NCBI RefSeq assembly: GCF_000426665.1
Contig: NZ_AUFU01000018.1
Span: 1 to 40,817, forward strand
Direction of reading: 5' to 3'
Length of the DNA stretch: 40,817 nt
Source of the DNA: Centipeda artemidis DSM 19719
GTDB lineage: Bacteria > Bacillota > Negativicutes > Selenomonadales > Selenomonadaceae
In this document: positions 1 through 40,817 of the stretch, piece after piece
Numbering within the stretch: position 1 is the stretch's first letter
How the letters are laid out: each line of letters opens with the position of its first letter
Program-made: the position numbers and the translations under genes
The notes under the pieces: model-generated
What the model was told of the DNA's origin: nothing
The model's input: the letters and a program-made list of their open reading frames with translations, nothing else
Databases searched by the model: none

Positions 1-34
1 ATGCGAATGTAATGCGTTATAATTGAATAATAAC
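1..34. repeat. Left copy of 34-bp terminal direct repeat (candidate att core)
   Basis: The first 34 bases are repeated exactly as the last 34 bases of the window. It is A+T-rich and not tRNA-like, and contains a TATAAT at 18-23. It may be an attL/attR core or the overlap of a circular assembly. Its position, in the non-coding stretch next to the integrase gene and between paired putative arm sites, favours an attachment core. Confidence 0.75.
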
Positions 35-37
35 ACA

Positions 38-50
38 ACACGAAAAACAT
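38..50 (+). repeat. 13-bp repeat, left flank of putative attP
   Basis: The 13-mer ACACGAAAAACAT occurs here and again, same orientation, at 40739-40751. On the circularised molecule the two copies flank the 34-bp terminal repeat at short distance on either side. They could bind integrase, excisionase or a host bending protein. The repeat is seen; the role is inferred. Confidence 0.45.
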
Positions 51-69
51 AAAGACATTCAACATCAAA

Positions 70-129
70 AAAATCCAGCAAAACAGCGGTCTAGCGGGGT
101 ATCCCTGCATCTGCGTTTTACTGGATTTT
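70..129 (-). terminator. Hairpin terminator after the integrase gene
   Basis: Positions 70-84 and 115-129 form an inverted repeat with 14 of 15 pairs, with a further short G+C stem inside (about 94-108). Read leftward, the hairpin is followed by a run of T (the A run at 67-73), as expected of an intrinsic terminator ending the lysogeny operon. A T-rich run also follows on the other strand, so it may work in both directions. It lies inside the presumed attP region, so a role in recombination is possible too. Confidence 0.6.
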
Positions 130-135
130 CTTTTT

Positions 136-154
136 TGACAGCTTATTTGACAGC
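136..154 (+). repeat. Paired TGACAGC repeats, putative left integrase arm sites
   Basis: TGACAGC occurs at 136-142 and 148-154, 12 bases apart. The same pair, in the same orientation and 11 bases apart, lies at 40681-40698 near the right end. Short direct repeats on both sides of a core are what tyrosine recombinases with an N-terminal arm-binding domain use as arm-type sites. The repeats are visible; binding is inferred. Confidence 0.5.
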
Positions 155-164
155 CCGGGGCGTC

Positions 165-1271
165 TTATCTGCCGTATTTCTCACCGATATGATCAATTTT
201 ATTTGTTATGCCGTCCTGCATGTGATCGGTATTGTGGATGTAGTGATCCATTGTAAACGCGGCGGAGGAATGACCGAGGCGAACCTGTATCTTCTTTGCA
301 CTGACCTCCTGTTCGGCGAGAAGCGTCGCATGGGTGTGCCGGAACGAGTGAAACCGCAAATTCTCAGGGAGTTCCAGCTTTCGCTTTAGGCTGAAGAATG
401 AGTGAGAAAGCGATCCCAGCGTCATGGGTTGTGTTATATCGCGCAAAGAACGGAACACGTAGTCATGATCCGAGATTCGGATACCTCTGGCGAAAAGGCT
501 CTTTGCGAGAACCTTTTTCCACTCCAGGAGGTTTTTCAGCGCTACGTTCGTCAGCGTCACGTTCCGGATGCTGCTTGCCGTTTTCGGCGCGCCCTCATAT
601 TCTCCGCCTGCATACTTACGCGATTTTGTAACGTGTACCACCATTCGCTCCCAGTCTAAATCAGACCAACGCAGGGCGACGATTTCGCCGCGTCGCAAGC
701 CTGTGTCCCAGGCGAACTTGTATAGATATTCAAGCTGCGTCCCTTCGATTTTTGATAGTAGGGCATGATATATTTCGGGGGTGACGATACCGGCGCGTAC
801 AGGAGCGTTTTTGTGTTTGCGAACGAAATCCATGGGATTTATGGCAATGAGCTGCTCGAATTTTGCCGCCTTGAAAATTGAGTACAGCAGGATATATACG
901 GTGCGGCGGCTTCCGTCACCTTTGATTTTTGCGAGTAGCTTCTTGATTAGCACAGGCTTTACATCCGCGATCTTCATTTCTGCCGGGATGGAGGGGAGAA
1001 TGTGATTATCAAGGAACTTGCGATAGGTCGATATGGTCGATCTTTCCAGTTTATCGACGTCACGCTTCGCGGCGAGAAATTCTTCGGCGAAATTGTGAAA
1101 TGTTTCGACCGCCAAAAAGTCGGAGACGTTCGCCGCAAGAACGCGGCGACGCTCCATTTCGAGGTCGCGCAGATTGTATGCGTAGATGTATCGCTTAACC
1201 TTTTCCCCTGTGATTGGATTTTCGACGGTGACGCTCGACTGGTAGCGCCCGTCTTTTCTTTTTGTTGGCAT
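165..1271 (-). CDS. int: Tyrosine recombinase, phage integrase
   Basis: This 368-residue protein would integrate and, with an excisionase, excise the prophage. Residues 1-50 form the short beta-rich arm-binding domain of this family, 55-150 the SAM-like core-binding domain, and 165-368 the catalytic domain. All active residues can be seen: R193 in TGLRRGE, K230, H308 and R311 in HSFRH, H334 in LGHSS, and the nucleophile Y344. The ATG is preceded by GAGGAGG at good spacing. It is the last gene of the leftward lysogeny operon, follows the nuclease gene after 150 bases, and lies beside the presumed attP. Nothing suggests a defect. Family assignment is secure; the attachment site is inferred. Confidence 0.96.
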   Translation of the reverse strand: MPTKRKDGRYQSSVTVENPITGEKVKRYIYAYNLRDLEMERRRVLAANVSDFLAVETFHNFAEEFLAAKRDVDKLERSTISTYRKFLDNHILPSIPAEMKIADVKPVLIKKLLAKIKGDGSRRTVYILLYSIFKAAKFEQLIAINPMDFVRKHKNAPVRAGIVTPEIYHALLSKIEGTQLEYLYKFAWDTGLRRGEIVALRWSDLDWERMVVHVTKSRKYAGGEYEGAPKTASSIRNVTLTNVALKNLLEWKKVLAKSLFARGIRISDHDYVFRSLRDITQPMTLGSLSHSFFSLKRKLELPENLRFHSFRHTHATLLAEQEVSAKKIQVRLGHSSAAFTMDHYIHNTDHMQDGITNKIDHIGEKYGR

Positions 1272-1421
1272 TGGGTAGCCTCCTCGTGTATCAAGGGATT
1301 GCGGGAGATGGCGTCAAAGATTTAAACTATACTTTCAGATATTGATGCCGAAAATGTAAGGTATGCTTTGAAATAGTAAAAATCGCGGATCTTTGTATCT
1401 CGGCGTGGGGAGATATAAAAA

Positions 1422-3038
1422 CTAAGCTATTTCTTCCTCCACCAGAGAAAGAGACTGGCGATACTGTTCCGCTTGCATAGTCCTGTTGAACTCTGCGGAC
1501 GGGTCATATTTATCGACCAATCCTTCAAGTTCATCAATAGACACTTTGAAAAACTCTTTTCGCGCATTTACTTTGTTCACACGGTTTTGTTCGAGCGCCA
1601 CATGCAGATCAGATTCTAGCTTCACGGCATCTTCGGAGAAAATGAAGCTGTGTACGTCAAATTTGAAGGGGACACTAGCATCTCCGAGTTCGTCTACGCG
1701 TTCTTGTGGATTTAGCCGCCGCGTCATGCCGACCTTGAACACATCGTCTCCGAACGACCCAAGATTGCTGATAACGTAGACATAGCCGGCTTTGCCGTTT
1801 TGCAGACGCGTTATTTCTTCCTGTTTTTCTTCAAGGTTATGTAGCTGACCTTCGAGTTCTTTGATTCGCTCTTGTAGTAACCTTGTTTTTTCATCATCCT
1901 CGGCGTCTACCATCTGTTGCCGGATATTTTCGATTTCAGCAGTATATTTGAGTTCCTCTTTTTTCATCTGCTCCTGTTGCTCTTTTAAACGGCGGCGCTC
2001 CTCGGCTTCCTCTCTCATCTGTGCGCGTAGCTCCTGTTGCTCCTGCCTTGCGGCTTCGCGCTTCACATAATACTCGTATTCTATTTTTACGGCATCTATA
2101 AAGAGGTATTCCAGTTCGCCTATAAATTTCGCCAGTGTAGCAGCTATCGTTTGGTTTCCGCTTTGCGCGATATTGATGTACCTATTTGTCATCGTTTTTA
2201 CGGCTTCAATTCCGTCGCTCAACTTGGAATACGTAAGCGTATATAGGATATTTTGTAATTCTGCTCGGAGTGCAATAACCATGAGTTGATAGATCGCTTG
2301 ATTTGTTTTTGTGCTATAACGCCCTTCGTAGCGCTCCAATGTACTGTCAATGAGTTTCTCATTTGCCCGGAAAGCTCGGCGGAGATCTTTGTAATCCATG
2401 CTATGGAGCTTTAGTGTTACGACAGGAACCAACTCATCGATATCCCTCATGAGTTCTACGGGTAAAGTGAGATATCGGTCATACGGTTCTGTCGATCCCT
2501 TGAAATAGGTTTTCAGAGTATGATTGACAGCATTTTGGATTGTCACCAAACGATCTATTTTTTCCTCACGGGAGACAAGTTTCTTTTCAAGAGATTCGAG
2601 TTCTTCTTTTGTGCGGGAAATTTCTGCGATATAAAAATCCTTCTTTTCGATCTCTGCATTTATTCGGTCTAGCTCAGTTTGTTTATCTTTGATACGAGAA
2701 ATAGCCTCAGACAAAGCATCTTCCCTTGCCTGATCAATAATAGCCTGCTTATCAGCCGCCTTCTCATTTATGACGGCGAGTTTTACCTCAGCCTCCTTAA
2801 TGAGCTCATCAACGGTGTTATTGGCTTCTTTTAGTATTGTTTCACGTTCTTTTTGTATACCGGCCTGGGCTCGCACGCTATATCGTTTCGCATGCCTAAC
2901 CTTTAAGAAGACCAGTATTAAAAGCGTGATCCCGGCCATTGGGGTTATTGGAGTTGCAAAAATAGCTATCCCGCAAACAATAAGAATCCAATCACTGATG
3001 TACCATGGCTCTGTGTACTTATAGTGTTCGTCCATCAA
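1422..3038 (-). CDS. Membrane-anchored DUF4041/GIY-YIG nuclease, SNIPE-like anti-phage protein
   Basis: In this 538-residue protein, residues 15-46 are one long or two short membrane segments, about 50-170 and 330-412 are charged coiled coil, and between them lies a helical region that I assign to DUF4041. The C-terminus is a T5orf172/Mug113-type GIY-YIG nuclease: Y419/Y421 in GYVYVI, KVGMTRR at 435-441, E475 in LESDLH and the closing EFF near 495. This is the architecture of SNIPE, reported (from memory) to sit in the inner membrane and cut phage DNA during injection. Start is TTG (3038), 8 bases after AGGGGA; ATG at 3035 is the alternative. It lies between immA and int, so it would be expressed in the lysogen. 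Base composition is more A+T-rich than the structural genes, consistent with later acquisition. Confidence 0.82.
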   Translation of the reverse strand: MMDEHYKYTEPWYISDWILIVCGIAIFATPITPMAGITLLILVFLKVRHAKRYSVRAQAGIQKERETILKEANNTVDELIKEAEVKLAVINEKAADKQAIIDQAREDALSEAISRIKDKQTELDRINAEIEKKDFYIAEISRTKEELESLEKKLVSREEKIDRLVTIQNAVNHTLKTYFKGSTEPYDRYLTLPVELMRDIDELVPVVTLKLHSMDYKDLRRAFRANEKLIDSTLERYEGRYSTKTNQAIYQLMVIALRAELQNILYTLTYSKLSDGIEAVKTMTNRYINIAQSGNQTIAATLAKFIGELEYLFIDAVKIEYEYYVKREAARQEQQELRAQMREEAEERRRLKEQQEQMKKEELKYTAEIENIRQQMVDAEDDEKTRLLQERIKELEGQLHNLEEKQEEITRLQNGKAGYVYVISNLGSFGDDVFKVGMTRRLNPQERVDELGDASVPFKFDVHSFIFSEDAVKLESDLHVALEQNRVNKVNARKEFFKVSIDELEGLVDKYDPSAEFNRTMQAEQYRQSLSLVEEEIA

Positions 3039-3129
3039 TGGTCACTTCCCCTAAATTCATTCTCTCTCTATTCCTTACACGATACTCCATCCAAAAAGGT
3101 TAAAAGTTATTCGCTTTCGCACCTCGTCC

Positions 3130-3594
3130 TTACCACAAATTCATCTGTCGATGGACATTTCGCCTTTGCATCCCTTGCAACTTTAACTCAGCATATTCCA
3201 CGGGCAAGCCATACGACTGCGCGAGCTGATAGATAGAGCATTCGGGGGATTCGAGAAGGAGTTCATCCGGCAGTAGTAGCTCAGCAGCGAATGTATTTGC
3301 CTGCCGTTCAAATCGGCTGTGCGGGTTGAATGTCTTTGTGTCCATGAAAACCGTGTTTAAGTCTCGGTGCATCTGCATATGCCCCAGCTCGTGAGCAAGT
3401 ACGAAGCGTTGTGTAATCTCATCCAAGTCCTCTGAAAGATAGATGATATGATTGCGCTTATGATACTGGTAGAACCCGTTGAGATCGACGAGGTGGCAAT
3501 AGATCAGTACGATATCAAGTGCCCGGGCAATCGTAAAAGGATCGTTGGAGTTACACCGCCTCATGAGTTTGATTGCACATTCCCTTGCATTCAT
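3130..3594 (-). CDS. immA: ImmA/IrrE-family metallopeptidase
   Basis: This is a short zinc peptidase of 154 residues with the HELGH motif at 68-72 and the third ligand region FERQAN-FAAELLLP, where E96 is the likely ligand. In ICEBs1 and many prophages, ImmA cleaves the adjacent XRE repressor after a host or quorum signal and so triggers excision. Here it begins 3 bases after the stop of the repressor gene and is surely co-transcribed with it. It is about the usual length for the family. The cleavage target is inferred from the neighbourhood, supported by the repressor lacking any S24 self-cleavage domain. Confidence 0.9.
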   Translation of the reverse strand: MNARECAIKLMRRCNSNDPFTIARALDIVLIYCHLVDLNGFYQYHKRNHIIYLSEDLDEITQRFVLAHELGHMQMHRDLNTVFMDTKTFNPHSRFERQANTFAAELLLPDELLLESPECSIYQLAQSYGLPVEYAELKLQGMQRRNVHRQMNLW

Positions 3595-3597
3595 TGC

Positions 3598-4053
3598 TCA
3601 ATCCTCGTGACGGTATTTCTTCGGCGTGTACTTTGCCTTGTTGCGCTTCTTCGCCATCTCCATCCCGATCTGCATCGCGTCAAGGATGGACTGGATGCTC
3701 TCGGGGCTTGCGGGGTGTCCGTCAAACATCAGCCCCTCCTCCTGCATGAGCTTTTCCTTCATATCGTCCATCATGCGGGTGATCTCGCGCTCATCTTTTG
3801 GAGTGAGGTCGGGCAGATTGTCTGATGCGGGGGCGGCGGATTCCTGTTCATCGTCGTCCCAACCCATAATGCTATTGGGGGATAGCTGCAAGACTTTAGC
3901 GAGCGATGCAATCGCTCCACGTTTCATGTTGGCAATTTCACCGCTCTCCCACCGCGAGATTGTCCCTTCACTCACACCGACTTTATCCGCGACCTCTTTC
4001 ATGGTCATACCGAGGGCTATTCGCTTTTGCCGGATTAAATCTCTTATCTCCAT
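3598..4053 (-). CDS. XRE-family lysogeny repressor (ImmR-like)
   Basis: The N-terminal 64 of 151 residues form a helix-turn-helix: LGMTMKEVADKVGVSEGTISRW covers the scanning and recognition helices (about 14-36). Residues 70-151 are acidic then basic and hold no LexA-like S24 peptidase, so RecA-driven self-cleavage is unlikely; the neighbouring ImmA probably inactivates it. The ATG follows a moderate AAGGCGGTGAT site. The gene is first in the leftward operon and starts 32 bases left of a TATAAT-type promoter whose -35 overlaps a palindromic operator, so autoregulation is likely. Family is clear; the role as master repressor rests on position and divergent cro-like gene. Confidence 0.9.
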   Translation of the reverse strand: MEIRDLIRQKRIALGMTMKEVADKVGVSEGTISRWESGEIANMKRGAIASLAKVLQLSPNSIMGWDDDEQESAAPASDNLPDLTPKDEREITRMMDDMKEKLMQEEGLMFDGHPASPESIQSILDAMQIGMEMAKKRNKAKYTPKKYRHED

Positions 4054-4085
4054 GACATCACCGCCTTGTTGTGAAAACTTAATTC

Positions 4086-4114
4086 ATTATACTCTGTTTC
4101 TTGCATTTTCGCAA
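4086..4114 (-). promoter_or_regulatory. Leftward repressor promoter
   Basis: Read on the minus strand, TTGCGA (4114-4109) and TATAAT (4091-4086) are separated by exactly 17 bases. This would drive repressor, immA, the SNIPE-like gene and perhaps int. The -35 box lies inside operator copy 1. Confidence 0.75.
4101..4114. promoter_or_regulatory. Operator copy 1, TTGC-N6-GCAA
   Basis: TTGCATTTTCGCAA fits the palindromic consensus TTGCGT-NN-ACGCAA shared by three other copies. It covers the -35 of the leftward promoter, so binding would block the repressor operon. Confidence 0.7.
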
Positions 4115-4140
4115 TATCTTTACCGAAAATGCTAAAAAAC

Positions 4141-4154
4141 TTGCGCAGACGCAT
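4141..4154. promoter_or_regulatory. Operator copy 2
   Basis: TTGCGCAGACGCAT differs from the palindrome at two positions. It abuts and overlaps by one base the TTGACT -35 box of the rightward promoter, a position suited to repression of the early operon. Confidence 0.7.
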
Positions 4155-4182
4155 TGACTAAGAGTATCCAATGTGCTATATT
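4154..4182 (+). promoter_or_regulatory. Rightward early promoter
   Basis: TTGACT (4154-4159) and TATATT (4177-4182) are separated by 17 bases. It would drive the cro-like gene and the early operon. It is bracketed by operator copies 2 and 3, as expected for the promoter shut off in the lysogen. Confidence 0.8.
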
Positions 4183-4186
4183 GTAC

Positions 4187-4200
4187 TTGCGTAGACGCAA
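4187..4200. promoter_or_regulatory. Operator copy 3
   Basis: TTGCGTAGACGCAA is a perfect inverted repeat apart from its two central bases. It lies where the rightward transcript would start and just before the AAGGAGGA ribosome site of the cro-like gene. It is the best match to the consensus and probably the strongest site. Confidence 0.75.
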
Positions 4201-4219
4201 GAAAGGAGGAAGATAGGCG

Positions 4220-4435
4220 TTGTTTGATAAAAACTTGTTCAAATTTCATGCGGGACGCGCCAATGCGTCAATGGAGACTATCGCCAATAAGCTAGGTATA
4301 AACGCCACCACGCTGTATAGAAAAATCAACGGTGAAAGCGACTTCACGCGCGGGGAAGTACAACTGCTACGCATGATTCTGAGACTCACCACGGATGAAG
4401 CCGATAGGATTTTTTTTGCCGAAAAACTTGCATAA
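4220..4435 (+). CDS. Small Cro-like HTH protein
   Basis: This 71-residue protein starts with TTG, 9 bases after AAGGAGGA. About residues 17-38 form a helix-turn-helix: METIANKLGINATTLYRKING reads as helix 2, turn and recognition helix. It is the first gene right of the early promoter and diverges from the repressor, the position of Cro or an activator. It probably binds the same TTGC-N6-GCAA sites and shuts off repressor synthesis. An operator copy overlaps its stop codon. I cannot exclude a CII-like role. Confidence 0.75.
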   Translation: MFDKNLFKFHAGRANASMETIANKLGINATTLYRKINGESDFTRGEVQLLRMILRLTTDEADRIFFAEKLA

Positions 4436-23186: not shown

Positions 23187-23477
23187 CCGATCGCATACGG
23201 ACCGCTCGCGCTGATGCCGAATACGTTCTATGCGCTCACCCCGAGCGAGTTCTATGATCTCATCGAGGGGTACCGACTGCGGCGTCAGATCGAGCAGCAG
23301 GAAAGATCGTATTTCGTGAGCTGGATCATCGCGCCGCACGTCAAAAAGGCGATCCCGCCCGACGTTATCTATAAGCCACTTGCGCCGCGGCGGGAGATCT
23401 CGGAGGCGGAGCTGGCAAAGGATAGAGAGTATTTTATGGCGATGGACAGAAGGCAGAGAGGAGGAGAAACGGATTGA
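23151..23477 (+). CDS. Second tail chaperone frame (gpT-like), made by -1 frameshift
   Basis: The frame continues from the slippery run as ITSFAGWINAAKPIAYGPLALMPNTFYALTPSEFYDLIEGYRLRR and ends at 23477, adding 108 residues; the fusion with the upstream frame would be about 221 residues. The segment PSEFYDLIEGY is typical of the C-terminal chaperone part. An internal ATG at 23214 lacks a ribosome site, which favours synthesis by shift only. The tape measure start overlaps its stop. Confidence 0.85.
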   Translation: MTSFAGWINAAKPIAYGPLALMPNTFYALTPSEFYDLIEGYRLRRQIEQQERSYFVSWIIAPHVKKAIPPDVIYKPLAPRREISEAELAKDREYFMAMDRRQRGGETD

Positions 23478-26020
23478 AGATTGCAGAGCTCATCGTACAG
23501 CTTGGCGCGGACAGCTCCGACATGGTCAAGGGGCTCAAGAAAGCTAAGACAGAAGTCGAGGTCTTCCAGGAGTCCTTGAAGGGCATCAGCAACATGATGG
23601 TCGGTATCGGCGGCATGTCGGTTGCGGCGGTCGGTGGCGCGATCGCGGCGACCAAGTCTTGGGCGGCGGCGGTCAACGATCTCGAGGATAAGACGAACAT
23701 GTCTGCCGAAAGCTGTTCCGAGCTGCTCTATGTTACGCAGGCTGTCGGACTCAGTATGTCTGATGCGGGGGACAGCCTGTCCAAGATGTCGAAGAACTCG
23801 GTCACGGCATATCAGTCGATTGTGAAGGCAAACGAGGCAGGCGAGCAGTCGACTGATATCTTCACGAAGTACGGCATCACAATCACCGACGCGAACGGCA
23901 AGTTGCTCTCGGCGCAGGATATATTGGCCAACGTCGCAAAACGTCATCGCGAGATGGCGAACGGTGTTGCCAAGACGTCGATGGAGATGGAGATCTTCGG
24001 CCGCTCGGGCGCGAAGCTGAACGACTTGCTGAACCTCACGGAGGAACAGCTGAACGGCATGACGCAGCGTGCCCGTGCTGCGGGGCTTGTGCTCGACCAC
24101 GAAACGACGCAGGCATGGGAGGACATGACGTTTCAGATCAACGAGGCGAAAGCAGCGATGGTTGGCGCGGGGGTGCAGGTTGGTAGTCTCTTACTGCCGG
24201 AGTTAAGAAGGCTTGCAGATTTTGTGCAAGAAGCCTCCGGCAAGATCAGCAAGATGTCGGACGAAGAAAAACATACAATGCTGACTACCCTAGAGGTCGC
24301 CGCCGCAATCGGCGGGCTGGGGCTTGGGATTCGCGCGCTGATATTTACCTTTGGGCCACTGATCACCGGCATAGGAGAGGTCATCGCCGCACTCGTTGAG
24401 ATGCGTAATGCCGCTATCGCCGCACGTCTTGCGGTAGCGGGACCCGTGGCCATTGCTGCGGGCGTTGTTGCGTACAGCGCATATAAGCAGAACGAAGCTT
24501 TTAAGAACTACGGTATGGAGGCGTTTACGGTTGACGAGGAGGCAGGGACGGCGTACGCCGATCCTGACAAAATCGCGGCAATCAAAAAACGCAGAGAGAT
24601 CAACGCCGCGGTAGATGAGGCAGCGGATGCGGCAGACCGTGAACATCAAGCGGAAGTGGAGCAGCTTAACGCGCCTCCCAAGATACCGGAATTTAATTTC
24701 GGTGCGGCTTCTTCCGGGGGCTCCCGCGGAGGCGGCGGACGTTCCGCAGCGCACGAAGCAGAAATTGAAGCGCGCAAGGCCAAAGCCGAAGCAGAGCGCT
24801 TGCAGCGTGAGATCGAGCAAATCACCGATGACATTAAACGGGCAACTGAATCCTCCGGCGAACTCACGGATAACTTCGCGAACGCGGGGCGGCAGCTCTC
24901 AGTCGGTATGCTTGACGGGGCGCAGGCAGTTTACAGTCAGATCGAAGAGGAACGGATTCGTCGTGAGCAGAGCCTTGACGACTTCCTCAAGCAGTATCGC
25001 AAATCCGTTGAAGAAGCGGTGAAGATCAAAACCGATGCCGAGAAGACGGGCGACGCGGCGATCCTTGCGGAGGCTGAGCGGTATCTGCTCGAACGGCAGG
25101 AAGCAGAGGCTGCCGCCGCGGAAGAGGTCGCAAAGCGCCGTACCTTGATCGAAGAAGATGCCAATAAAGCGATGCTCGCGAACAGCACGCGCGCAAGAGC
25201 GATCGAAGCGGAGATGCGCGCGGCGATGGATGAAGGGGACGTACAGCGTTATCAGGCGGCGCTCTCCGATGAGAATGTTGCGTTCATAGCAAGCCTAGAA
25301 GAAAGACAGGCGGCCTTGCAGCAGTATCATGACTGGCGCATGGCGGCGGAGGAAAGCTACAGTGCATTCTCCCTTCAAATCATGGAGCAGTTCCGGCAGA
25401 ACTTCAGCAAGTCCATTACAGACTTCATCATGGGGACAAAGTCGCTTGGCGACGCCCTCGGCGGTGTCATCAAGCAGATGATCCAGATGTATATTCAGTG
25501 GCGTATTCAGCAGGTGCTCGCCGCTGCTTTTGCTAAAAAACAGCAGGCGCAGGAAACTGCTACAGGCACCGCACAAGCCGCGACATTGGCGGCTGCATGG
25601 TGGGCGGCAGCAATTCCGAAGATGATTGTCACAGGAGGTTTCGGTGGCTTTGGAAGCTTCGGAGGTCTCGGAGGTACAGGAACAGGCATCCCGTTTGCCG
25701 GCGGATCGTTTACGGGCTTCGGCGTCGCGTCGCCGTTCCGCGCGATGGCAGAGGGCGGCTACGCCTACGGTCCGACGCTGGCACTCATCGGTGAGGGCAA
25801 GCACCCCGAGGCTGTCCTGCCGCTCAATGATAATACGTTCGGCGAGATCGCAAAGGGGATCGCAGGACAAGGGATCGGCGGCAACGTAACGCTGCAAGTC
25901 AGCGCAATGGACGCGGGAAGCTTTTCTCACTGGCTGCAGACAGGCGGCGGCGTGGAGCTGAAGCGCTATCTCGCTGACAGCGCAAGAGAGTTCAGTATGG
26001 GAGGAGGCGCGTTCGCATGA
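23474..26020 (+). CDS. Tape measure protein
   Basis: A tape measure of 848 residues; its length sets the tail length (roughly 125 nm if 0.15 nm per residue holds, an inference). The N-terminus KIAELIVQLGADSSDMVKGLKKAKTEVEVFQESL is typical. A hydrophobic region lies at about 268-335 (AAAIGGLGLGIRALIF and AVAGPVAIAAGVVAYSAY), followed by a Gly/Ser linker near 410, long coiled coils (425-600) and a Gly-rich patch (GGFGGFGSFGGLGG, about 715). The start is TTG at 23474 after GAGGAG and overlaps the chaperone stop. It is short for a siphophage. Confidence 0.95.
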   Translation: MKIAELIVQLGADSSDMVKGLKKAKTEVEVFQESLKGISNMMVGIGGMSVAAVGGAIAATKSWAAAVNDLEDKTNMSAESCSELLYVTQAVGLSMSDAGDSLSKMSKNSVTAYQSIVKANEAGEQSTDIFTKYGITITDANGKLLSAQDILANVAKRHREMANGVAKTSMEMEIFGRSGAKLNDLLNLTEEQLNGMTQRARAAGLVLDHETTQAWEDMTFQINEAKAAMVGAGVQVGSLLLPELRRLADFVQEASGKISKMSDEEKHTMLTTLEVAAAIGGLGLGIRALIFTFGPLITGIGEVIAALVEMRNAAIAARLAVAGPVAIAAGVVAYSAYKQNEAFKNYGMEAFTVDEEAGTAYADPDKIAAIKKRREINAAVDEAADAADREHQAEVEQLNAPPKIPEFNFGAASSGGSRGGGGRSAAHEAEIEARKAKAEAERLQREIEQITDDIKRATESSGELTDNFANAGRQLSVGMLDGAQAVYSQIEEERIRREQSLDDFLKQYRKSVEEAVKIKTDAEKTGDAAILAEAERYLLERQEAEAAAAEEVAKRRTLIEEDANKAMLANSTRARAIEAEMRAAMDEGDVQRYQAALSDENVAFIASLEERQAALQQYHDWRMAAEESYSAFSLQIMEQFRQNFSKSITDFIMGTKSLGDALGGVIKQMIQMYIQWRIQQVLAAAFAKKQQAQETATGTAQAATLAAAWWAAAIPKMIVTGGFGGFGSFGGLGGTGTGIPFAGGSFTGFGVASPFRAMAEGGYAYGPTLALIGEGKHPEAVLPLNDNTFGEIAKGIAGQGIGGNVTLQVSAMDAGSFSHWLQTGGGVELKRYLADSAREFSMGGGAFA

Positions 26021-36296: not shown

Positions 36297-38069
36297 ATGA
36301 ATCTGAAAACTGAACTGCTGCCGCATCAAACGGCGGCGGTAGAAAAGCTCAGAAAACTAAAGATTGGTGCCCTGTATATGGAGCAGGGCACCGGAAAGAC
36401 AAGGACGACGCTCTCGCTTATCAAGGAGCGAGAGGAAGCGGGAAAGATTGATGTTGTGCTGTGGTTATGCCCGTGCAGCGTCAAGAAGAATCTCCGCGAA
36501 GACATTACCTATCATTGCGGAGAGATCCCCGGTAACTTTGTCATACGGGGGATTGAAAGTCTGTCATCTTCGGGGCGGCTGTATCTTCAGCTCCTCGAGC
36601 TGGTAGAAACACATAAAGTCTACCTAATCGTGGACGAGAGCAACCTTGTCAAAAATCACGAGGCGATACGCACCGCGAGGATCACAAGAATCGGGCGGTT
36701 TTGCAATTATAAACTCATCCTTAACGGGACGCCCGTCTCGAAGAACGAGGCGGATATGTTCGCGCAGTGGGTGATATTAGACTGGCGGATACTCGGATAC
36801 AAATCGTTCTATAGTTTCGCCGCAAATCACCTCGAGTATAAAGAGATAAAAGACCCAAGAACGGGGATAAAACACAAGACTGATCAGGTCGCGCGCGTTC
36901 TGAACGTGGATTACCTTACAGAAAAGATCGCGCCCTATACCTATCAGATCAGAAAAGAGGATTGCCTGCATCTTCCGAAAAAAGAATACCGATCGATGTA
37001 TTTTACAATGACGCCGGAGCAGGCGGATTTGTATGACGCGATCAAATGGGAATACCTAGAGAGCGTAAACGAGCTGCGGGCAGAGACGATCTATAAGCTA
37101 TTCACCGCATTACAGCATGTCGTCTCAGGACGAGGCGTCCTGTCGGGACCACAAGAGCGCATGCAGACAGCGCCGTTCTTTTCGGACTGGCACGACAACC
37201 CGAGGATACAAAAATTAAAAGAACTGATAGAGGACATCGGAACGGAGAAATGCATCATCTTCGCAAAGTATCAATCCGAGATCAATACGATCGAGGCGTT
37301 GCTATCTGAAATGAACCTCACGCATGTGACCTTTACGGGGAAGTTATCGCAGCCGAAACGGCAAGAGAACCGTGCGGCGTTTCAAAACAACGTACAATTT
37401 TTTGTAGCAAACAAGGTGTGCGGCGCCTATGGATTGAATCTACAGTTCTGTCGCAACATCATATACTACAGCAATGATTTTGACCTTGCGACACGCATGC
37501 AGTCGGAGGATCGGGTGCACCGTATCGGGCAGACGCAGGAGGTCAGAATTTACGATATATGCTGCGGCGGGACGATCGATGAACTTATCGAAGGATGTCT
37601 CTCGCGGAAGGAGAGCCTCGTTGATACCTTTAAGAAGGAAATCGACCAATGGAAAGGAGAACTAACGATGCAGTACAAAAACTTCTCAGCAGAAACGGAC
37701 CCGGATTTCTATCTGCGGTTCGGGGCGTTATTTGCCTCGCGTGCCATCCGAAAGGAGCTCGACGGATACCCGCTCAGTAACGAGCCGGACTGGACGTGGG
37801 TCACCGCGCTAGAGGGAAACACTATTGCTGGATTTTTGGCCGTCGAACCGAAAGCGCAGGGGATTCACATTCACGCCGCCTACGTCATGGAGGGGTATCG
37901 GAAGCAGGGCGTGCTCCGAGAGCTGGTACGCCGTGCTGTTAAATTTGCCGGGAACCGCAGCATTACCGTCACGACACGAATCTGCCTTGCTCACGTATAT
38001 GTCTCACACGGATTCAAAGAGACGGGCAAAAAAGGTAAAGCATGGGTGAATATGAGGAGGGAAGGATGA
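36297..38069 (+). CDS. SNF2-family ATPase fused to a C-terminal GNAT acetyltransferase domain
   Basis: Residues 1-455 of this 590-residue protein are a DNA-dependent SNF2 motor: Walker A QGTGKT (30-35), Walker B IVDESN (111-116, so DES in place of DEAH), LILNGTP (140-146) and motif VI EDRVHRIGQTQEV (404-416). Residues 458-590 look like a GNAT fold, with the acetyl-CoA loop in YVMEGYRKQGVLRELVRRAV and a closing VYVSHGFKETGKKG. At 37668 lies an in-frame ATG behind GGAAAGGAGA, so the GNAT part may also be made alone. It follows the HARP-like gene by one base and overlaps ibrA. Motor assignment is firm; GNAT substrate unknown. Confidence 0.88.
   Translation: MNLKTELLPHQTAAVEKLRKLKIGALYMEQGTGKTRTTLSLIKEREEAGKIDVVLWLCPCSVKKNLREDITYHCGEIPGNFVIRGIESLSSSGRLYLQLLELVETHKVYLIVDESNLVKNHEAIRTARITRIGRFCNYKLILNGTPVSKNEADMFAQWVILDWRILGYKSFYSFAANHLEYKEIKDPRTGIKHKTDQVARVLNVDYLTEKIAPYTYQIRKEDCLHLPKKEYRSMYFTMTPEQADLYDAIKWEYLESVNELRAETIYKLFTALQHVVSGRGVLSGPQERMQTAPFFSDWHDNPRIQKLKELIEDIGTEKCIIFAKYQSEINTIEALLSEMNLTHVTFTGKLSQPKRQENRAAFQNNVQFFVANKVCGAYGLNLQFCRNIIYYSNDFDLATRMQSEDRVHRIGQTQEVRIYDICCGGTIDELIEGCLSRKESLVDTFKKEIDQWKGELTMQYKNFSAETDPDFYLRFGALFASRAIRKELDGYPLSNEPDWTWVTALEGNTIAGFLAVEPKAQGIHIHAAYVMEGYRKQGVLRELVRRAVKFAGNRSITVTTRICLAHVYVSHGFKETGKKGKAWVNMRREG
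37651..37670 (+). promoter_or_regulatory. Internal ribosome site and start for the GNAT domain
   Basis: GGAAAGGAGA (37651-37660) stands 7 bases before an in-frame ATG (37668) that opens exactly at the start of the acetyltransferase domain. This suggests a second, shorter product of 133 residues within the fused gene. Confidence 0.5.
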
Positions 38070-39370
38070 AGAAAGTATACCAAGACGAGGACGTATACAC
38101 TGCGGCACAGCGAAGGATCAACTTCCTGTTTGATAACTTCGAGAAAATCTGCGTGAGTTTTTCCGGCGGCAAGGATTCAGGCGTTCTGCTGAACATGTGC
38201 ATCGACATTGCACGGGAGCGAAAGCGCAAAGTCGGCGTCCTATTCATCGACCTCGAGGCATTCTATTCAATGACAATCGAATATGTCGAGAGAATGTTCC
38301 GCGAAAATGAGGATGTCCTCGAGCCGTACTGGATATGCCTGCCGATGGAGAGCCCTAATAGCCTGTCCTACCTTGAACCAACGTGGATATGGTGGCAGCC
38401 GGAAAAGCGTCCGATTTGGGTGCGGCCGATGCAAAAAAATAAATGGGTGGTGAATTTAGATAATCAGGAATTGCCGTTCTACACACAGAATATGCCGTTT
38501 GAGAAGTTCATTCTCCACTTTGCGGCGTGGTACGGGCAGGGGAAGAGCACCGCGCAGCTCGTCGGGATACGGACAGACGAATCGCTGAACCGATGGCGGG
38601 CGATCGCCTCGGACGGCGCACAGGTCAATAACTACGAGGACATCGCATGGTCGCAGAAGATGGCGGAGAACTGCTATAGCTTTTATCCGATCTACGACTG
38701 GGCGGCGGAAGACGACTGGATATATTACGGAAAATTCAACAAGCCGTATAATCGGCTGTACGATCTGTTCTATCGGGGAGGCGTGCCAATTCACAAGATG
38801 CGCGTGGACGAGCCGTTCGGGAACGAAGCGAAAGCAGGGCTGAACCTCTTTCGCGTGATTGAGCCGGACACGTGGGCACGCGTTGTGAACCGCGTTTCCG
38901 GTGCGAACTTTGGCAATATATACGCTGGGAAAAAGATCATGACCGCAGATTACACGCTGCCGAAGGGACATACATGGCGGAGCTTCTGTAAATTTCTGCT
39001 GACGACACTGCCGAAAGAGGCGGCAAATAACTATAGGTGTAAATTTATCAAGTTCATAAAGTACTGGAAGCGCACGGGCTGTCCTGTTCCGGCAGATATC
39101 ATCGAGGAGCTGGAAAGAACCTGCCCGGACGCGATCGAGAACCTTCACAAATTCTCGAATCGCGGGAAAGGCGACAAAGAGATGATCCGCGCTCGAAAGG
39201 TCCTTGATGAACTGCCGGGCTTGGACAATCGACAAGACCTATGCACATGGAAGCGGATGGCTATGTGCATCATCAAGAACGATTACATTTGTAAGGGGCT
39301 GTGCTTCACGATAACAAAAGACCTCACGAAGCGTCAGCGGGAAATTGTAGAGAAGTATAAAAACCTATAG
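38066..39370 (+). CDS. ibrA: IbrA-like PP-loop ATP pyrophosphatase (PAPS reductase family, DUF3440)
   Basis: The PP-loop SFSGGKDSGV at 31-40 activates a substrate by adenylation, as in PAPS reductase and the DNA phosphorothioation enzyme DndC. Other landmarks in this 434-residue protein are VLFIDLEAFY, VGIRTDESLNRWRAI, and the C-terminal DUF3440 with four Cys (C393, C401, C409, C413) that may hold a metal or Fe-S cluster. The gene is followed by the ParB-like ibrB, the pair known from E. coli prophages and many phages, with unknown reaction. ATG 38066 overlaps the previous TGA and has GAGGAGGG before it. Confidence 0.9.
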   Translation: MKKVYQDEDVYTAAQRRINFLFDNFEKICVSFSGGKDSGVLLNMCIDIARERKRKVGVLFIDLEAFYSMTIEYVERMFRENEDVLEPYWICLPMESPNSLSYLEPTWIWWQPEKRPIWVRPMQKNKWVVNLDNQELPFYTQNMPFEKFILHFAAWYGQGKSTAQLVGIRTDESLNRWRAIASDGAQVNNYEDIAWSQKMAENCYSFYPIYDWAAEDDWIYYGKFNKPYNRLYDLFYRGGVPIHKMRVDEPFGNEAKAGLNLFRVIEPDTWARVVNRVSGANFGNIYAGKKIMTADYTLPKGHTWRSFCKFLLTTLPKEAANNYRCKFIKFIKYWKRTGCPVPADIIEELERTCPDAIENLHKFSNRGKGDKEMIRARKVLDELPGLDNRQDLCTWKRMAMCIIKNDYICKGLCFTITKDLTKRQREIVEKYKNL

Positions 39371-39378
39371 GAGGAGCT

Positions 39379-39894
39379 ATGAAAGAATACAAAAGCCCCG
39401 TGTACGGCGTCATTGCCGTACCGATTGAAAAGATCAGGGCGAACGAATACAACCCGAATAGTGTTGCGCCGCCGGAGATGAAACTGCTGTATGACAGCAT
39501 CAAGGAAGACGGGTATACGATGCCCGTGGTATGCTATTATCATCCAGAAGACGATATGTATGAAATCGTTGACGGATTTCATCGGTACTCCGTCATGCTG
39601 CGGCACAAAGACATCTACGAGAGGGAGGGCGGAAAGCTGCCTGTTTCGGTCATCGACAAACCAATAGGCGACCGAATGGCAAGCACGATCCGGCACAACA
39701 GAGCCCGTGGATCGCATGACCTTGATCTTATGAGCAACATCGTCCGGGAGCTGGTTGATATGGGCAAAAGCAATGCGTGGATCATGAAGCATCTCGGTAT
39801 GGATGCAGATGAGGTGATCCGGTTGAAGCAGATCACAGGTCTTGCCGCGATGTTCGTGGACAACGAATTTTCAAGAGCATGGGAGGCGCGATAA
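39379..39894 (+). CDS. ibrB: IbrB-like ParB/Srx-fold protein
   Basis: The N-terminal ParB fold (residues 10-100 of 171) contains VPIEKIRANEYNPNSVAPPEMKLLYDSIKEDGYTMPVV and the phosphate-binding motif EIVDGFHRYSV (62-72). RHNRARGSH (105-113) is typical of IbrB. A helix-turn-helix-like helical region follows (LVDMGKSNAWIMKHLGMDADEVIRLKQ). The DGFHR motif recalls DGQHR of DndB. ParB-type folds bind or hydrolyse nucleotides and bind DNA. AGGAGGAG precedes the ATG. The next gene starts on its last base. Confidence 0.9.
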   Translation: MKEYKSPVYGVIAVPIEKIRANEYNPNSVAPPEMKLLYDSIKEDGYTMPVVCYYHPEDDMYEIVDGFHRYSVMLRHKDIYEREGGKLPVSVIDKPIGDRMASTIRHNRARGSHDLDLMSNIVRELVDMGKSNAWIMKHLGMDADEVIRLKQITGLAAMFVDNEFSRAWEAR

Positions 39895-40783: not shown

Positions 40784-40817
40784 ATGCGAATGTAATGCGT
40801 TATAATTGAATAATAAC
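40784..40817. repeat. Right copy of 34-bp terminal direct repeat (candidate att core)
   Basis: Identical to bases 1-34. With the left copy it either marks the two ends of an integrated prophage or the overlap of a circular sequence. In both cases the genome closes at this point, giving one non-coding region from 40612 through the joint to 164. Confidence 0.75.

Follow-up and report, generated by a model that had tools for sequence, protein, structure and literature searches.

A SNIPE-like nuclease gene of a separate subfamily in the lysogeny operon of a Centipeda artemidis prophage

The gene at 1422–3038 of the window (the whole stretch of DNA analysed here, 40,817 bases) encodes a SNIPE-like nuclease with intact catalytic residues, lies in the lysogeny operon of a prophage and belongs to a subfamily separate from that of Escherichia coli SNIPE (PD-lambda-1). 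It is a gene of a known kind in function and position; what is new is its changed middle domain. We think that it probably guards the lysogen against superinfection, as a SNIPE-like barrier that consists of one gene and is carried by the prophage. The 2026 publication on SNIPE describes a barrier that distinguishes viral from own DNA by where the DNA is. A sister subfamily that keeps the nuclease but differs in the middle domain amounts to a domain swap made by nature, useful for finding out what the middle domain senses, and the many members that have no transmembrane (TM)-like segment make the question of how the chromosome is spared directly testable.

The gene and its protein

The window, which is on record in IMG/VR too, is one entire contig of a genome assembled into 35 contigs (2.35 Mb in all). 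The gene and the parts of its product are as follows.

1422–3038, minus strand: SNIPE-like gene, a single open frame of 538 amino acids, start TTG at 3038 or ATG at 3035
2898–3005, minus strand: predicted N-terminal membrane hairpin, residues 12–47, from hydropathy and a low-confidence model
2505–2897, minus strand: long coiled coil, residues 48–178, from the structure model
2058–2426, minus strand: middle four-helix domain, residues 205–327, an alternative or strongly diverged DUF4041
1794–2057, minus strand: helical linker, residues 328–415, common to the DUF4041 type
1482–1793, minus strand: GIY-YIG (Mug113) nuclease, residues 416–519, with Y421, R441 and E475

The ATG is the second codon, following the TTG, and a GGGGAAG motif lies a few bases 5′ of the start; ATG 3035 is more likely to be the start than TTG 3038. 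The frame is not a chance one, given its matches to the PADLOC PD-Lambda-1 models PDLC03976 and PDLC03977 (E 2.9e-84 and 4.9e-80, best stretches 279–535 and 249–535, judged on E-values) and to phrog_1847 (E 2.4e-98, residues 39–535). These matches, with the position between immA and int described below, bear out the preliminary description's SNIPE-like architecture in a prophage lysogeny setting. PDLC03976 matched five proteins of the DUF4041 type, to which E. coli SNIPE belongs, at E 2.6e-103 to 1.9e-198, and five of the window type, which share the middle domain of the window protein, at E 6.5e-77 to 1e-89. The family phrog_1847, labelled as of unknown function, matches both types over most of their length and gives E 7.2e-196 with the PhiR26_1 protein that is annotated as PD-lambda-1.

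At the C-terminal end, Pfam lists Mug113 (PF13455, E 8.6e-17, residues 434–510). Y421, R441 and E475 are unchanged throughout an alignment of 83 sequences (the window protein and 82 relatives), and profile alignment pairs E475 with E414 of E. coli SNIPE. The preliminary description had read the domain as a GIY-YIG nuclease of Mug113/T5orf172 type with these three residues; the nuclease, its residues and Mug113 stand, and the T5orf172 part falls away for this protein, as PF10544 is not listed for it in the Pfam scan up to E 10. Among the 83 aligned members, the window protein included, Mug113 is found in 83 and T5orf172 in 76. The coiled coil of the same description appears as one long coiled coil in the structure model. 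A sequence search of the PDB with the window protein gave no match at E 0.1, and an NCBIfam scan gave none close to cut-off. We did not name a fold from structure matches in the PDB, which were helical-bundle or coiled-coil matches only (Z ≤10.5 and ≤10.4), as is usual for helical models.

The middle domain

The middle region had been assigned to DUF4041, and as a plain assignment this had to be given up: a Pfam scan of the window protein up to E 10 does not list PF13250 (DUF4041) (HMMER filters drop most matches above about 0.1), whereas this family matches 7 of 7 classical phage homologues run as controls, PhiR26_1 PD-lambda-1 among them, at E 1.2e-11 to 3.2e-25 (T5orf172 matches these too). 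The outcome that the preliminary description itself had named as speaking against it, no DUF4041 match, is thus what Pfam returned. At E 0.1, PF13250 was found in at most 3 of the 83 aligned members of the window branch, the window included. When 50 viral records were scanned, it scored above the cut-off in 25/25 of the DUF4041 type versus 1/25 of the window type, and that single match sits in an adjoining second gene of the DUF4041 type. Two more of the 25 window-type records had PF13250 at 13–14 bits, under the cut-off.

Profile alignments show the linker and nuclease to be homologous between the two types: hhalign of window residues 333–415 with the E. coli-type linker gave 97% probability (E 1.1e-10), whereas the middle domains alone, profile against profile, gave only 3.5%. 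With whole alignments compared as profiles, window residues 201–536 aligned to E. coli-type 135–476, pairing window 252 with E. coli-type 198, where PF13250 starts. The weak PF13250 match of one relative (L007) begins at its residue 181, equivalent to window 251, in agreement with this register.

The window protein and an E. coli-type SNIPE, L098, were modelled (mean pLDDT 83.5 and 87.2) and the structures compared, a check that had been named beforehand; helices and strands come in the same order in both. The first middle helix spans 217–238 in the window model and 146–165 in L098, the second 244–267 and 185–212, and the third 273–294 and 219–236; a long helix then starts at 296 and 246, and a further long one (382–413 and 321–355) precedes the GIY-YIG fold. 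L098 has a small strand element (173–175) after the first middle helix and before the second; the window model is without it, and so are several DUF4041-type phage proteins. Among viral structures, A0A8S5M6J8 is the best match of either model (E 2.7e-15 for the window and 4.9e-20 for L098, next matches at about 1e-5), with low TM-scores of 0.32–0.45. Since the predicted helix order is the same, the middle domain is likely to be a DUF4041 that has diverged strongly and altered its surface, the alternative being replacement by an unrelated helical bundle. With PF13250 unmatched and the helix order alike, we call the protein SNIPE-like rather than SNIPE in the strict sense. Conservation of the middle domain relative to the nuclease was 0.78 in the window type and 0.62 in the DUF4041 type, from which we draw nothing because the genome-scan patterns included the middle region.

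Two subfamilies

Middle-domain profiles were run on all open reading frames of 254 loci and the window, each classed by its best nuclease frame. Of these 255 sequences, which were chosen as relatives so that a nuclease is present in every one by construction, and which include many near-copies, 136 were of the window type and 119 of the DUF4041 type, and none matched both profiles (E 1e-3). With L001, L009 and L178 removed as copies of the gene in the window, 252 sequences remained, which fell into 170 clusters at 90% identity, 112 of the window type and 58 of the DUF4041 type. The two types are unequally sampled, because each scan kept the best 80 of the loci listed and, for the DUF4041 type, covered viral contigs and phage records only. 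In a tree of linker and nuclease, with the middle domain excluded, the types split on one branch (SH-aLRT 99, a quick method run with no bootstrap); on this tree of sequences, the window protein is on a sister branch of the DUF4041 type. Among the best 80 genome loci, the window type came mostly from Clostridia and other Bacillota, and the most similar named relative was that of Propionispira raffinosivorans (Selenomonadaceae), 62% identical; in the tree, an uncultured Bacilli bin (L019) is nearer to the window. Our literature search found no paper on the window-type subfamily and no report of a tested member.

The N-terminus

The N-terminal membrane anchor of the preliminary description is supported at the level of sequence: hydropathy marks two hydrophobic stretches, at about residues 15–29 and 33–47, and the model places helices at 12–28 and from 34, with low confidence in that stretch. 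Membrane insertion of the window protein is therefore a prediction, and across the subfamily it would be a minority trait. By a simple hydropathy rule, a TM-like start occurs in 22 of 108 full-length window-type clusters versus 43 of 58 DUF4041-type clusters, leaving 86 of the 108 with no such N-terminus; because of this low share, membrane anchoring may not be central to the window-type subfamily, the window itself being in the TM minority. N-termini were taken from the first start codon of the frame, and 4 of the 112 clusters, fragments of less than 400 amino acids, were excluded. The other starts in the 108 clusters comprise 27 with a zinc-ribbon motif, 25 that are MGLFDIF-like and 36 with none of these, and two of the 22 TM-like clusters also have the zinc ribbon. 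Three loci (L032, L036 and L039) combine a zinc-ribbon motif with a TM-like segment at the N-terminus. Anchors are common to both types, since a profile of the kind of hairpin present in the window protein finds DUF4041-type SNIPEs down to E 1.5e-14; up to E 0.1 it matched 33 of the DUF4041 type (many of them near-copies), 19 of the window type and two other frames (0.02–0.04).

The lysogeny operon and its variable slot

The preliminary description had placed the gene between immA and int, and this is where it lies, with immA upstream and the integrase downstream on the same strand.

165–1271, minus strand: tyrosine integrase, PF00589, E 2.2e-25
3130–3594, minus strand: immA, Peptidase_M78, PF06114, E 1.5e-22
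3598–4053, minus strand: HTH repressor, PF01381, E 7e-13
4086–4114, minus strand: promoter-like site 5′ of the repressor, a consensus match only (3 sites found, shuffles average 6.9)

The SNIPE-like gene stands 91 bp from immA and 150 bp from int, and the one terminator-like match on the minus strand of 1–4400 lies within the SNIPE-like gene; a common transcript from the repressor through the SNIPE-like gene is plausible from this layout. The same setting, with an HTH gene upstream and a recombinase (tyrosine or serine) downstream, both on the strand of the SNIPE-like gene, recurs among the evaluable clusters of the window type, the window itself set apart: 24 of 28 viral clusters have it and 32 of 58 genome clusters, leaving 26 of the 58 without it. 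For the DUF4041 type the counts are 15 of 46 evaluable viral clusters and 4 of 4 phage-record clusters, the latter partly by construction because the profile seeds include phage loci. We built the profiles for integrase, HTH and M78 ourselves, and a cluster was evaluable if its representative had at least 2.0 kb upstream and at least 1.3 kb downstream; non-evaluable clusters showed the setting in 6/18 genome and 4/7 viral cases (window type) and in 0/7 viral and 1/1 phage cases (DUF4041 type). Controls on the opposite strand gave 0/28 viral and 2/58 genome clusters, and controls with swapped order 1/28 and 2/58, for the window type; for the DUF4041 type both controls gave 0 and 0.

Three loci in the window's family have integrases 62–67% identical to that of the window (the third partial) and different genes in the slot: in L259 a protein bearing a PemK-like toxin domain, beside an unknown neighbour; in L260 two small proteins; and in L261 a DUF4258 protein whose partner, a possible antitoxin, matches YokU and MqsA under their cut-offs. 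The L261 cargo adjoins what by eye are transposase-like frames, and no M78 gene was found there. Integrases of this kind occur at E 1e-60 in 4 of 121 genomes, the window's own included. As related loci hold other cargo in the same place, we regard the SNIPE-like gene as cargo in a variable slot. In one further locus, on a viral contig (L212, 4395–7246), and in its near-copy L213, viral as well, a single lysogeny operon carries a repressor, a DUF4041-type SNIPE, a window-type SNIPE, one further gene and an integrase, both SNIPEs starting MGLFNKKEL; such a tandem is easier to understand if the two types are not redundant.

The prophage

Ten other proteins of the window were scanned; the matches of several of them, to portal, major head, major tail, tail terminator, tape measure and J-like tail proteins, are consistent with a siphophage-type prophage. 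The tape measure gene and the repeats at the ends are as follows.

23474–26020, plus strand: tape measure protein, phrog_12798 E 5.1e-65; PF10145 E 4.5e-7, 30.4 bits, under the cut-off of 33.2
1–34, plus strand: 34-bp repeat, probable att core, int side
40784–40817, plus strand: 34-bp repeat, probable att core, right end

Another contig of the genome (C2) ends with 61 bp of the phage right end, the 34 bp (G000:C2 183490–183523) and other sequence, and so carries the right junction. Contig edges exactly at the repeat would fit a mixture of integrated and circular forms, with excision in culture; the place of these breaks thus suggests an excising prophage. Near the right end, at 36297–39894 (plus strand), stand in a row a SNF2-type helicase with a GNAT domain, a DUF3440/PAPS-reductase protein and a ParB_N-like protein, a row reminiscent of IbrA/IbrB. 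In PADLOC, ZorD and DpdE match the helicase part of this row, and there are weak DndC and BrxP matches.

Occurrence and the published census

The SNIPE-like gene of the window was found in 1 of 14 genomes of the genus. Of 299 genomes sampled from the phylum, one, that of the window, had the window-type middle domain, and three had PF13250. At E 1e-5, the window type was found in 0 of 50,697 GenBank phage records and 0 of 72,556 plasmid records, sets from which those near the window's genome may be excluded. Another genome of the window's family (G028) has a DUF4041 match in a 604-amino-acid open frame (G028:C2 114300–114467). The suggestion that a Negativicutes prophage version would widen the known range of the system hardly survives these comparisons, as DUF4041-type genes occupy the same region of the Gram-positive phages EJ-1, phiS10, Javan523, PMBT9 and MismyG, and PF13250 is present in G028.

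According to PMC13190303 and PMC9519451, the published SNIPE homologues came from an earlier blastp search at 80% query cover. We re-ran such a filter (blastp, E 1e-5, one HSP covering 80% of the PhiR26_1 PD-lambda-1 query, with the database size set for the re-run), and it kept 5 of 112 window-type and 27 of 58 DUF4041-type clusters; at 70% cover it kept 6/112 and 51/58. The window protein fails this filter, aligning to query residues 260–472 only. From the 5 of 112 we infer that much of the window branch is missing from the 474 published homologues; tools based on HMMs would probably still call the window type PD-Lambda-1. Some SNIPE homologues that have no TM segment carry N-terminal DUF4428 domains, as PMC13190303 describes, and as zinc-ribbon starts also occur in the window branch, these homologues may be a point against the branch having been missed.

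Proposed function and alternative explanations

In the mechanism that we propose, the lysogen would make the protein from the repressor side of its phage, and the predicted N-terminal hairpin would hold it at the inner face of the cell membrane, with the long coiled coil reaching into the cytoplasm. By analogy with SNIPE, the middle four-helix domain would recognise some component with which an incoming phage injects its DNA, much as DUF4041 recognises tape measure proteins, but through a different surface and possibly with a different partner. Recognition would bring the GIY-YIG nuclease onto the entering DNA, which would then be cleaved. Recognition of the injection apparatus, cutting during entry and protection of the lysogen are all carried over from E. 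coli SNIPE, which protects against phages according to PMC13190303. According to PMC12322248, one Streptococcus thermophilus PD-Lambda-1, which may belong to either subfamily, also protects, and of two S. thermophilus homologues that are 98.5% identical one is inactive; homology alone is therefore no proof of activity.

The preliminary description had asked how such a protein spares the DNA of its own phage, and had conceived of a self-immunity rule, perhaps linked to the tape measure protein. No special rule is needed. Repressor immunity normally shields a lysogen from its own phage: superinfecting siblings meet the repressor. At first entry, into a cell without the prophage, no SNIPE is present. 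The induced prophage is spared as well: E. coli SNIPE affected neither the induced prophage nor its yield, as reported in PMC13190303.

A broader picture, possible but less likely than not, is one in which SNIPE consists of two old subfamilies with common nuclease and linker and different sensor domains: the window type would recognise another part of the entry machinery, phages with both types would have double cover, and members that have no TM-like start would be kept off the chromosome by other means. A variant that overlaps with our explanation, and that is likewise possible but less likely than not, is that the domain is a drifted DUF4041 which still binds siphophage tape measure proteins, so that nothing is new in the recognition. 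The similar helix order of the window and L098 models, the 13–14-bit PF13250 matches in two of 25 viral records and the in-register start in L007 all agree with such drift; the split of the types on one branch, the lack of any sequence that matches both middle-domain models and the two types side by side in the L212 operon argue against it.

That the protein has a GIY-YIG-like fold but stays in the cytoplasm, binding DNA or regulating lysogeny and playing no part in defence, would suit its place within the lysogeny operon, the 86 of 108 full-length clusters that have no TM-like N-terminus and the many T5orf172 and Bro proteins in the structure search. We nevertheless consider it unlikely, because the catalytic residues are invariant in 83 aligned sequences, the similarity to the PD-Lambda-1 family runs over most of the length and the slot is filled differently in related loci. 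There are homing enzymes among the GIY-YIG nucleases, but a homing endonuclease acting in its own interest is extremely improbable for a free-standing gene in an ordinary operon position whose product has a membrane-type and coiled-coil N-terminus. With the recognition partner not fixed, a barrier mainly against conjugated or transformed DNA can also be imagined; the location of the gene in a prophage makes this very unlikely, as does the statement in PMC13190303 that E. coli SNIPE did not block plasmid transformation. Our preferred explanation continues to be a superinfection barrier of the SNIPE kind.

Comparison with known systems

Like the window protein, E. coli SNIPE is a single protein with an N-terminal membrane segment (predicted in the window protein), a long helical stalk, a middle domain, a linker and a Mug113/GIY-YIG nuclease with the same catalytic glutamate, and it too is found on prophages (PhiR26_1). 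Unlike it, the window protein has no PF13250 match, stands on a separate branch of the linker and nuclease tree and has a predicted two-helix hairpin where SNIPE has one TM segment. Among the published SNIPE homologues, an N-terminal membrane segment is present in 66% and two TM segments are predicted in 7%, by the figures in PMC13190303. As membrane-localised barriers at phage entry (PMC13190303), Zorya and Kiwa resemble the barrier proposed here, but they are multi-protein systems (PMC12904381).

A likeness in position is seen in temperate phages of Gram-positive bacteria. EJ-1 (ORF3), phiS10, Javan523, PMBT9 and MismyG have, like the window, a repressor, a DUF4041 gene and an integrase with 0–1 gene on either side, and PLE3 has more genes in between in the same region. 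Their DUF4041 proteins share a hydrophobic N-terminus with the window protein, in all but PLE3, and are 38–42% identical to it in the C-terminal half only. The five that were scanned (EJ-1, PLE3, phiS10, Javan523 and PMBT9) match PF13250, whereas the window protein does not. In Salmonella phage ES18 (L011, 4044–9577), a DUF4041-type gene lies in the tail region, one gene from the tape measure gene. Phage SNIPE homologues (L012–L017 and others) are annotated as helicase, chromosome segregation ATPase, AAA-ATPase or UPF0325 YaeH.
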